Assembly (NCBI GenBank): GCA_905480195.1
Contig: CAJQPN010000048.1
Coordinates: 1-64,000, forward strand
Origin: an uncultured Acidimicrobiales bacterium
Lineage (GTDB): Bacteria; Actinomycetota; Acidimicrobiia; Acidimicrobiales; Aldehydirespiratoraceae
Reading direction: 5' to 3'
Length of the DNA stretch: 64,000 nucleotides
Shown: positions 23,657 to 27,599 of the stretch, in pieces
How positions within the stretch are numbered: position 1 is the stretch's first letter
Layout of the letters: every line of letters begins with the position of its first letter
The notes under the pieces: model-generated
The model's database searches: none
What the model saw: the letters and a program-made list of their open reading frames with translations, nothing else
Told to the model about the DNA's origin: nothing
Position numbers and translations under genes: made by a program

Positions 23657-24634
23657 ATGACCGCACATGCCATTCGCATGACCACTACCGGAGGACCAGA
23701 GGTCCTTGCGTACGAAGAGATCGACGTTCCCGACCCGGGACCTGGACAGGCGACCGTGGCGGTGCATGCGAGTGGCGTGAACTTCATCGATACGTATCAC
23801 CGCTCAGGCCTCTACGACGTGCCGCTTCCGTTCACACCGGGGTCGGAGGGGGCCGGAGTCGTCACTGCGGTCGGCGCCGATGTCGAAGCGGTGGCAGCCG
23901 GCGACCGGGTCGCCTGGGTTGGGGTGCCGGCTAGCTATGCGTCGCACGTCGTCGCCGACGCAAGCGTGTTGATGCGGGTTCCCGACGACATCACGCTCGA
24001 GACTGCGGCGGCGATTCCGCTGCAGGCGATGACTGCTCACTACCTCATCACCGACACCTACTCCCTTGCCCCCGGCGACACCTGCCTCGTCCACGCCGCC
24101 GCCGGTGGCACGGGCCGGCTGATCGTCCAGATGGCACGGTTACGCGGCGCCCGAGTCGTCGCAACCGCCGGTTCCGACGAGAAGCTCGCGATCGCACGTT
24201 CGGGCGGCGCCGACCACGCGATCAACTACCGAACGACCGACATTGTCGAAGGTGTTGAAGCCGCAGTGGGCAAGGACGCCATCGATGTCGTCTACGACGG
24301 TGTCGGGGCGGCGACGTTCGAAGCCGGACTCGCGGTCCTGCGGCCTCGTGGTGTCATGGCCACGTTCGGCAACGCGTCCGGAGCCGTTCCACCGGTCAGT
24401 CCACTCTCGCTCATGCCGAAGTCGCTGTTCCTCACCCGACCTAGCCTGTTCAGTCACATGCTCACCGCCGCCGAGCGACTTGGTCGCTGGAACGAGATCA
24501 TCAGCTGGGTGCAGACCGGAGAACTCGAGATCCGTATCGGCCACACATGGCGGCTCGCCGAGGCCGCTGCGGCGCACACTGCGCTCGAATCGCGTGCGAC
24601 AACCGGCAAACTGCTGCTCACTGCGGGAAACTGA
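23657..24634 (+). CDS. Quinone oxidoreductase (zinc-independent MDR/ADH family)
   Basis: PDPGPGQATVAVHASGVNFIDTYHRSGLYDVPLPFTPGSEGAGVV...HAAAGGTGRLIVQMARLRGARVVATAGSDEK. Confidence 0.93.
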   Translation: MTAHAIRMTTTGGPEVLAYEEIDVPDPGPGQATVAVHASGVNFIDTYHRSGLYDVPLPFTPGSEGAGVVTAVGADVEAVAAGDRVAWVGVPASYASHVVADASVLMRVPDDITLETAAAIPLQAMTAHYLITDTYSLAPGDTCLVHAAAGGTGRLIVQMARLRGARVVATAGSDEKLAIARSGGADHAINYRTTDIVEGVEAAVGKDAIDVVYDGVGAATFEAGLAVLRPRGVMATFGNASGAVPPVSPLSLMPKSLFLTRPSLFSHMLTAAERLGRWNEIISWVQTGELEIRIGHTWRLAEAAAAHTALESRATTGKLLLTAGN

Positions 24635-24638
24635 GAAC

Positions 24639-25598
24639 GTGACGGCTCTTCTTGATGCATTCGAAGCTCTCGTAACTCGACAAGTAGCTGCGCTGGCTGC
24701 GCCGGGAGTCTGGTTCACCGGAGAGGAACAGGTCGCAATCGCCCGTGAGGCCCGCGGCGCCCGGGCCGGCCAGCCTCCTGCCGGTGAGCTACCGGCGGCT
24801 GTCGCCGACGCAAGCCGCCGTATCGCAACCGAAGCCTGGACGATTCGGCCCGCCGACATCGCAGCATGGGTCAACGCCGGTCTCCGTGCAGAGGCCTACG
24901 TCGAGATCCTGTCGATCGTCGCTCGCTTGGCTGCGCTCGACACGGCGGCATTCGGGCTCGGACTCGACGATCCCGTCCTGCCGGAACCGATCGCAGGTCT
25001 GCCCAGCCAGGTGGTGATCACCGACGCGGCGATCAACCAGGGATGGGTACCCACCGTGGGCGTTGCCCACCCGGTCACCGCTCTCACCGCGATCCCAGGC
25101 GGCCTTGAGCTGCAGTTCGACGTCCACGAAACGCTCTACCTGTCGATCGATGAAATGAGCGACCCGGTCGCTACACGCAACGGCGCCACTCGCGCCCAGA
25201 TCGAGTTGGCTGCCGCCCGAACGTCGTATCTCAACGAGTGTTTCTTTTGACTGCTGTCTCATGCGGGGATGCTCCGTGCGAGCCTCCATGAGACAGGCCA
25301 AGAACTCCACCCGCGCGTGATCGCAGAAGGGTGCGGTACCTGCGGGGTACCCGCCGGGAACGACATCCGCGCCCTCGTCGATGCCTGCGTAATGCGGGAC
25401 TTTGACGAGTACCCCGATGCGCGGGTTCGCGCCGAGCTCCGGCTCGGCCGCGATACAGCCGATCGCATTGTCATGGTGGCCGCCAACTTCGAGATGATGA
25501 ACCGATTACTCGATGCCGTCGGCGTGCCGGTAAGTGCAACCACGACCGGACTCGCCACCGAAATGGGGCTCGTCATCCCTGATCATCTGCAGCCGTGA
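24639..25598 (+). CDS. Candidate AhpD/CMD-like selenoprotein with UGA (Sec) at 25248-25250
   Basis: ORFs 24639..25250 and 25269..25598 share a frame and are separated by one TGA. Context ..AQIELAAARTSYLNECFF(U)LLSHAGMLR.. reproduces AhpD catalytic spacing E-x11-C-x2-C/U-x3-H. Hairpin follows TGA. Confidence 0.75.
25254..25296 (+). promoter_or_regulatory. Candidate bacterial SECIS hairpin
   Basis: CTGTCTCATG (25254-25263) pairs perfectly with CATGAGACAG (25287-25296); inner GGGG/CCTC and CTC/GAG helices with AUG bulge; apical loop CGUGC starting 25 nt after UGA. Confidence 0.7.
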
Positions 25599-26020
25599 CC
25601 GTGACCCTGCAGTATCTCCTCGACCGACTCGCCATCTCCGACTTCCTCACGACCTATGCCAACGCCGTCGACACCAGGGACTGGGCGCTCTACCGAACCC
25701 TCTTCACCGCAGACGCGCACATCGACTACACCGCAGCTGGCGGGATCGAGGGCACGGTCGACGAGGTCGTCTCGTGGCTCGAAACCACGATGGAGATGTT
25801 TTCGGCCACCCAGCACCTCGTGAGCAACGAAATGGTCACGATCGACGGCGACACGGCAACCGTGCGGGCGATGTTCTTCAACCCGATGCACTTCGCTGGC
25901 AAAGACGCTCCCTTCTTCGAGTGCGGGGGTTGGTACAACCACGAGCTCGTTCGCCACGGCGACGGCTGGCGGAGCGTTCGTCTCTGGGAGGACTTCTCCT
26001 GGACCACGATGGGGAAGTGA
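25595..26020 (+). CDS. SnoaL-like/nuclear transport factor 2 family protein
   Basis: LLDRLAISDFLTTYANAVDTRDWALYRTLFTADAHIDYTAAGG...; 140 aa. Confidence 0.85.
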   Translation: MTVTLQYLLDRLAISDFLTTYANAVDTRDWALYRTLFTADAHIDYTAAGGIEGTVDEVVSWLETTMEMFSATQHLVSNEMVTIDGDTATVRAMFFNPMHFAGKDAPFFECGGWYNHELVRHGDGWRSVRLWEDFSWTTMGK

Positions 26021-26021
26021 C

Positions 26022-27599
26022 ATGGCGCCACCCTGGACCACGATCCCAGACCTGATCGACGATGCGGCCGACCGCTTCGCATCGAACGAGGCCATGGTCG
26101 ACGGCGACATCCGTTGGGACTTCGTCGAGTTTCGCACCGAGATCCGACGAGCGGCCGCCGCACTGATGGCGAGCGGCGTCGAACGCGGCGACCGCATCGC
26201 GGTGTGGGCGCCGAACTGCTGGGAGTGGGCGGTCGCCGCCCTCGGCGTCCATGTCGCAGGCGCGATCGTCGTCCCCATCAACACGCGTTTCAAAGGCCGC
26301 GAGGCGGCCTACGTGATCGAGTCGAGCAAGGCTCGCATCCTCTTCACCGTCACGGACTTCCTCGACACCGACTACGTCGCACTCCTGAGCGAGGCTGGCG
26401 TGCCTGCTTCACTCGACGAGATCGTGGTCCTGCGGGGCACCGTTCCCGACGCTGCGGTCGCGTTCGCCGACATGATCGACCGAGGCAGAGGCATCTCCGA
26501 CGACACGATCGCCGAGCGCGCTGCGATGATCGCACCCCACGATTTGTGCAACATCATGTTCACCTCGGGCACCACCGGTTCTCCCAAGGGAGCGATGCTC
26601 ACCCACGGGGCCACCTGTCGGGCGTTCAAGTCGTGGTCTGACGTGATCGGTCTCGACCAGGACCGATACCTGATCGTCAACCCGTTTTTTCATTCGTTCG
26701 GCCTGAACGCCGGCATCCTCGCCTGCCTCATGACCGGATCGACGATCGTCCCACACCCGGTGTTCGACGTCGCTCAGGTGATGCAACGGGTTCCCGAGGA
26801 ACGGATCTCGATGCTGCCTGGCCCGCCCGCGATCTACCAGACGATCCTCAACGACCCTGACCTCGAATCATTCGACATGTCATCACTTCGACTCGCAGTC
26901 ACGGGCGCAGCCGCGATTCCGGTCGAGATGATTCTGCAGATGCGCGAACGACTCGGTTTCGAGAAGATCGTGACCGGCTACGGGCTCACCGAATCGACCG
27001 GCATCGCCACCATGTGTCGACACGACGATGACCCCGAAATCATCGCTAACACCTCAGGTCGGGCGATCCCCGACGTCGAGGTGCGGGTGATCGATGCCAA
27101 CGGCAAGGAGGTACCCCGGGGCGAGCCGGGCGAGATCGTGGTACGGGGCTACAACATCATGCTCGGCTACCTCGATGACCCCGAGAAAACCGCCGAGACA
27201 GTCGATGCCGAGGGCTGGCTTCACACCGGTGACATTGGCGTGATGGACGATGGCGGCAACATCGACATCACCGACCGGGTGAAGGACATGTTCATCAACG
27301 GTGGATTCAATGCGTACCCCGCGGAGATCGAGAACGTGATGACGAAGCACCCCGATATCGCCTCGGTCGCCGTGGTAGGCGTGCCCGACGAACGCCTCGG
27401 CGAGGTCGGCTACGCCTTCGTGATCCCGGTCAGGGGTTCGGCTCCCAGTGGCGACGAGATCATGACGTGGTGTCGCACCGAAATGGCCAACTACAAGTGC
27501 CCCCGCCACGTCGCCTTCGTCGACGCGTTGCCGCTCAACGCCAGTGGCAAGGTCCTCAAATACGAACTGCGCGACCAAGCGATTGCATCACTCGGCTGA
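26022..27599 (+). CDS. Acyl-CoA synthetase, AMP-dependent ligase (FadD3-like)
   Basis: MFTSGTTGSPKGAMLTH, GYGLTESTG, GWLHTGDIGVMDDGGNIDITDRVKDMFINGGFNAYPAEIE, NASGKVLKYELR. Confidence 0.93.
   Translation: MAPPWTTIPDLIDDAADRFASNEAMVDGDIRWDFVEFRTEIRRAAAALMASGVERGDRIAVWAPNCWEWAVAALGVHVAGAIVVPINTRFKGREAAYVIESSKARILFTVTDFLDTDYVALLSEAGVPASLDEIVVLRGTVPDAAVAFADMIDRGRGISDDTIAERAAMIAPHDLCNIMFTSGTTGSPKGAMLTHGATCRAFKSWSDVIGLDQDRYLIVNPFFHSFGLNAGILACLMTGSTIVPHPVFDVAQVMQRVPEERISMLPGPPAIYQTILNDPDLESFDMSSLRLAVTGAAAIPVEMILQMRERLGFEKIVTGYGLTESTGIATMCRHDDDPEIIANTSGRAIPDVEVRVIDANGKEVPRGEPGEIVVRGYNIMLGYLDDPEKTAETVDAEGWLHTGDIGVMDDGGNIDITDRVKDMFINGGFNAYPAEIENVMTKHPDIASVAVVGVPDERLGEVGYAFVIPVRGSAPSGDEIMTWCRTEMANYKCPRHVAFVDALPLNASGKVLKYELRDQAIASLG

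Follow-up and report, generated by a model that had tools for sequence, protein, structure and literature searches.

Organization of the locus

We analyzed a 64,000-nucleotide stretch of DNA from an uncultured Acidimicrobiales bacterium (referred to here as the window), in which two adjacent reading frames, 24639-25250 and 25269-25598, lie in the same frame on the plus strand. A preliminary description of this DNA had proposed that the two, with no other stop between them, should be read as one protein of about 319 residues, and we confirmed that they are one gene, very probably for a selenoprotein: when the TGA at the junction is taken as a residue, the frame is open from 24639 to 25598 and contains, over 319 codons, that single internal TGA and a terminal TGA (Table 1). 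The residues around the internal TGA, at position 204 (U204), are ...AQIELAAARTSYLNECFF-U-LLSHAGMLR. The GTG at 24639 is the likely start, in preference to the TTG at 24243 that a mechanical ORF finder gave to the upstream reading frame, because it lies 4 nt past the stop of the preceding gene and is collinear with the relatives, which over the full length of the protein are 86% (L019), 81% (L020), and 52% (G205 and G271) identical to it. The terminal TGA (25596-25598) and the GTG with which the next gene starts share a 4-nt overlap (GTGA), as expected if ribosomes pass through the UGA at 25248-25250.

Table 1 Features of the locus (positions in the window) and the two Cys-containing homologues (positions in their own sequences)
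Feature	Position	Strand	Remarks
Quinone-oxidoreductase-like (QOR-like) protein, upstream neighbor	23657..24634	+	Stop 4 nt upstream of the selenoprotein gene; location kept in the genus
AhpD-related selenoprotein gene	24639..25598	+	319 codons, GTG start, internal TGA (very probably Sec204); relatives align over full length
Active-site stretch Glu189 ... Cys201-Phe-Phe-Sec204-x3-His208 (predicted)	25203..25262	+	Motif spacing, alignment of relatives
In-frame TGA, very probable Sec codon (U204)	25248-25250	+	Second position of C-x-x-U; same codon in 46 distinct homologues
Long outer stem around the apical hairpin	25254..25296	+	CTGTCTCATG (25254-25263) with CATGAGACAG (25287-25296), 10 bp, no mismatch
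SECIS-like apical hairpin GCTC-CGTGC-GAGC	25271..25283	+	Loop G second; conserved in nearly all 46 UGA homologues
SnoaL_4 protein, downstream neighbor	25595..26020	+	Pfam PF13577, 111 bits
FadD3-family acyl-CoA ligase, next gene	26022..27599	+	NF005801, 720.7 bits (cut-off 657)
Cys form L021	443-1345	+	Motif CFYCLLSH
Cys form L054	1740-2582	-	Motif CFYCTLGH

Comparison with four other close genomes indicated that the genus and its closest relative share the gene order QOR-like, selenoprotein, SnoaL-like, FadD3-like (L019/L024, which are one and the same contig, L020, L025, and L026). Elsewhere in the class, the genomes that we examined do not keep these neighbors; the flanks available there mostly covered 1.5 kb, so that distant links would be missed.

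The in-frame UGA is conserved among homologues in the class

We searched 396 genomes of the class in all six frames and found a homologue in 80 of them, 75 of which have exactly one in-frame TGA. Together with the match of the whole protein to a known family (see below), the occurrence of such homologues in 75 of the 396 genomes is more than chance. In each of the 46 distinct UGA sequences examined, the TGA occupies the same codon within the motif E-x11-C-x-x-U-x3-H. Two homologues, L021 and L054, have TGC at this position, and thus Cys forms of the protein exist, which the preliminary description had suggested looking for and which are expected of a bacterial selenoprotein gene. Both are nested among the Sec forms in the tree (the fork of L021 is weakly supported, and the branch of L054 is long), and this placement is consistent with Sec having been replaced by Cys. 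The genome of L021 retains selB and L021 itself retains a SECIS-like stem; in L054 the hairpin is lost.

The preliminary description had named a resequenced TGC or TGT at 25248-25250 as grounds for abandoning its claim, and the TGC in the two Cys forms might be taken to suggest that the codon in the window is one of these, obscured by a sequencing error or altered by a recent mutation. However, the TGA recurs in 46 distinct sequences drawn from many different genomes and is followed by a hairpin that is upheld by codon choice (see below). Its presence at the identical codon in so many sequences practically excludes a sequencing error, and we regard error or recent mutation as an exceedingly improbable explanation.

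Another explanation is that the TGA is a true stop, in which case the upstream frame would encode a protein of 203 residues and the downstream frame would be a pseudogene remnant or a separate protein of 109 residues starting at 25269. There is an in-frame ATG at 25269, and TGA does serve as a stop elsewhere in this genome, among other places at the ends of the upstream neighbor and of the selenoprotein gene itself. A stop at this position, however, would split the active site, leaving the conserved His208 between the TGA and the ATG; the same TGA position recurs in the 46 distinct homologues; and the two halves, searched separately, have no match in Pfam, whereas the whole protein matches the NCBIfam family NF041238. 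Furthermore, dN/dS downstream of the UGA, calculated against four relatives, is 0.07, 0.12, 0.29, and 0.34, values about equal to those upstream, which indicates that the codons past the UGA are under purifying selection at the level of the protein. Homologues that end at the UGA, with nothing conserved beyond it, had been put forward as evidence that would count against a selenoprotein; instead, the downstream part is conserved. Taken together, these findings make a true stop very unlikely.

The UGA form of the gene is also associated with tRNA-Sec. A clear tRNA-Sec is present in 61 of the 75 genomes with the UGA gene as compared with 187 of the other 321 (Fisher p 0.0002 over the 396 genomes, uncorrected for kinship and completeness). 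A loosened search of the remaining 14 UGA genomes gave mostly matches below the gathering score, which are probably other tRNAs, and we therefore chose selB as the marker in these genomes; selB is above cut-off in 10 of them, and the four genomes in which both markers are missing by these measures are 56 to 77% complete.

A SECIS-like hairpin lies within the coding sequence

A bacterial SECIS element is a hairpin close downstream of the UGA that has a G among the first two positions of its loop. In the window gene, the hairpin GCUC-CGUGC-GAGC begins 20 nt after the UGA, with its loop 24 nt after the UGA and a G at the second loop position. The corresponding structure, with the consensus GCUC-NGKNN-GAGC (a 4-bp stem and a 5-nt loop, NG(U/G)NN), is possible in nearly all of the 46 UGA sequences, at least 45 of which have each of the three innermost pairs. 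The pattern GCTCNGKNNGAGC has a single match in the 64-kb window, counting both strands, and it is at this hairpin.

The hairpin is visible in the choice of synonymous codons. Leu at +8 from the UGA is encoded by CTC in all 46 sequences (CTC makes up 40% of the Leu codons in the rest of these genes), Ala at +10 by GCG in 19 of 19 (background 28%), and Ser at +11 by AGC or AGT in 45 of 45 (background 26%). At +9, Ser is AGT in 13 of 13 (background 4.8%), Gly is GGT in 4 of 4 (background 22%), and Arg is CGT in 22 of 29 (background 12%), the rest being CGG or AGG. Amino acid changes at +9 (Arg, Ser, Gly) and at +10 (Ala, Trp, Glu, Leu, Ser) leave both the loop G and the pairing G in place. A stem pair outside the core shows covariation, 12 sequences having substituted both bases of its A-U (with C-G in 9, U-G in 2, and U-A in 1), and 85% of cells are paired in the true register as compared with 28 to 48% in slid registers. 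We note that the codon counts come from sequences of shared ancestry and are not independent tests; since kinship inflates any p-values drawn from them, the case rests on codon choice across many genera. This in-coding SECIS consensus for NF041238 in the class is clear and testable.

In the window, the apical hairpin is enclosed by a long outer stem, and the folding z-score is -2.5 for 25248-25300 and -3.3 for 25251-25296. The 10-bp outer stem is imperfect in the closest relatives and is not conserved across the class, and RNAalifold, applied to 60 nt in fixed register, recovered only the 4-bp apical stem GCUC/GAGC; we therefore consider the outer stem to be a local feature and not one of the family. 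Minimum-energy folding of the window sequence alone did not choose the conserved GCUC/GAGC pairing. A search of the source genome with Rfam RF00031 (SECIS_1) gave no match, but neither did its controls, so that this result is uninformative, and the sole match in an Rfam scan of the locus was at chance level and on the opposite strand.

The source genome encodes the selenocysteine machinery

The source assembly (2.78 Mb in 66 contigs, 87% complete, 1% contaminated) contains each of selA, selB, tRNA-Sec, and selD, the genes that a bacterial selenoprotein gene requires and for which the preliminary description had proposed a search. A tRNA-Sec with anticodon TCA is on contig 47 (64 bits); selA (375.6 bits, NCBIfam cut-off 267.9) adjoins selB (300.6 bits, cut-off 242.25) on contig 60; and selD is on contig 3 (374.4 bits when read through, cut-off 125). 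This selD (L017; G000:C3:80795-81721, plus strand) has an in-frame UGA of its own (GAGUGCK), so that SelD is itself a selenoprotein in this genome. Three further members of the genus (G205, G271, and G393) also have tRNA-Sec.

It could be argued that read-through of the UGA inserts another amino acid in place of Sec (Trp or Cys, for instance, by suppression), given that the existence of Cys homologues means that Cys would probably be functional at this position. The complete Sec machinery, the SECIS-type hairpin with its loop G, the UGA within selD, and the use of TGA as a stop in the neighboring genes all speak against such a reading, which we judge to be highly unlikely. The UGA at 25248-25250 thus very probably encodes selenocysteine, which means that a UGA by which annotation of this actinobacterial assembly would be split is in all likelihood a true Sec codon. 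The preliminary description's interpretation of the gene as a selenoprotein is therefore supported; each of the three outcomes that it had said would overturn the interpretation was examined, and none refuted it.

Predicted active site and proposed function

The active-site residues of Mycobacterium tuberculosis AhpD are Glu118, Cys130, Cys133, and His137 (PMC3141380). The window protein has the motif E-x11-C-F-F-U-x3-H, in which Glu189 precedes Cys201 by 12 residues, U204 follows Cys201 by 3, and His208 follows U204 by 4, a spacing identical to that in AhpD; the earlier placement of the UGA at the second Cys of an AhpD-type site agrees with this spacing. An extra CxxC occurs past this site (25332-25343, residues 232-235), as EGCGTCG or EGCGSCG, in the window copy and in the two relatives closest to it; in G205 and G271 the first Cys of this extra motif is missing.

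We are highly confident that the gene encodes an NF041238 selenoprotein in which the UGA would be decoded as Sec by SelB and tRNA-Sec with the help of the in-coding hairpin just downstream, and in which U204 would take the place of the second Cys of an AhpD-type site. U204 would lie in a helical C-terminal half of AhpD/CMD type, at the equivalent of Cys133 in the CxxC site of M. tuberculosis AhpD, and Cys201, Glu189, and His208 would make up the rest of the relay. By analogy, U204 would be the nucleophile acting on a peroxide or disulfide, C201 would be the resolving residue, and Glu189 and His208 would relay protons. The residue set matches what is known of AhpD and so supports a thiol/selenol redox center; the proposed peroxidase step is suggested by residue spacing and analogy within the family. 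We lean toward a peroxidase or disulfide reductase, with U204 as attacking selenolate and C201 as resolving thiol; in the genus, a lipid- or sterol-like catabolic operon may be what this enzyme serves or protects.

Alternatively, the protein may be a selenoprotein but not a peroxidase, and may carry out an isomerization, a decarboxylation, or a reductive step on an intermediate of the QOR-/SnoaL-/FadD3-like pathway in the genus. In favor of such a role, none of the other four close genomes that we looked at has lost the link to the three neighboring genes, and CMD relatives include decarboxylases (Pfam PF02627). However, CxxU together with the Glu/His relay is the redox set of AhpD, members of the gamma-CMD family are without that set (PMC3141380), and the neighbors are not kept outside the genus; we consider this alternative unlikely. 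We also consider it unlikely that the CFFUL branch was recruited in this genus to a lipid or sterol catabolic operon, where the selenoenzyme would have one particular organic intermediate, or the hydroperoxide of that intermediate, as its substrate, as opposed to serving as a general antioxidant. Recruitment of this kind, if true, would be the first pathway-specific role for the NF041238 family. The literature that we searched yielded no experimentally tested function for the family, and the genus-specific operon is the first hint at a pathway for it.

Family membership and comparison with known systems

The joined protein matches NF041238 with 201.8 bits over residues 8-306 of 319 (curated equivalog cut-off 175), and it has the CxxU (or CxxC) motif, with UGA at the second position, expected of a member of the family. 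The family is listed in a 2026 review as the CxxU "AhpD-related protein (hypothetical protein 1, Sargasso Sea metagenome)" (PMC13188914), and "hypothetical protein 1" was first reported in 2005 in the Sargasso Sea selenoproteome (PMC1088965). By sequence, the window protein is therefore a further member of a known selenoprotein family and not a new family. Sec in the CxxU of AhpD-like proteins is, as the preliminary description had stated, a known pattern; its suggestion that the gene is hidden holds for a plain table 11 gene caller, which would split it in two, but not for the field, to which NF041238 was known beforehand as a family of CxxU selenoproteins.

The preliminary description's assignment to AhpD/CMD-like proteins also stands in part, in that the AhpD/CMD-like portion is the C-terminal half only and the protein belongs to NF041238 and not to AhpD proper (TIGR00777, 11 bits against a cut-off of 191.95). 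The match to Pfam CMD (PF02627) spans the UGA and is below the gathering cut-off of 23 (17.5 bits, E 0.0042). Among solved structures, profile matches to the C-terminal half are AhpD-type or "peroxidase-related" chains (6k40, 2prr, 2oyo, 3c1l, and 2pfx). The N-terminal ~120 residues carry no domain assignment of their own, and we do not claim that residues 25-130 are an internal duplicate of the AhpD-like half, a comparison to which hhalign assigned a probability of 9% (E 0.0036, profile against profile). An AlphaFold2 model built from a five-sequence alignment had a mean pLDDT of 54 and gave no Foldseek match below E = 2, and for these reasons we made no use of the predicted structure.

The source genome contains a second NF041238 selenoprotein (L053; G000:C3:105255-106190, minus strand), which has the motif CFYUT and an apical hairpin of its own, scores 235.7 bits against the family, is 28% identical to the window copy, and falls in a distant clade.

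With the family as a whole (AhpD_rel_CFYUT, "alkylhydroperoxidase-related (seleno)protein"), the window protein has in common the CxxU, the site of the UGA, and the AhpD-like C-terminal half. It differs in having CFFUL in place of the CFYUT for which the family is named, and in being one of two deep paralogues in its genome, situated within the genus in an operon with QOR-, SnoaL-, and FadD3-like genes. The TIGR01926 peroxidase-related enzymes (PDB 2prr, 2oyo, 3c1l, and 2pfx) are among the best matches to the C-terminal half in solved structures, yet the window protein scores 31.9 bits against that model, below the cut-off of 81.8, and these solved relatives have 188-197 residues, no long N-terminal part, and no Sec. 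With M. tuberculosis AhpD (PDB 1knc and 1gu9), the window protein shares the arrangement Glu-x11-Cys-x2-(Cys/Sec)-x3-His and a CMD-type domain, and is distinguished from it by what is very probably Sec in place of the second Cys and by a length of 319 as opposed to 177 residues.
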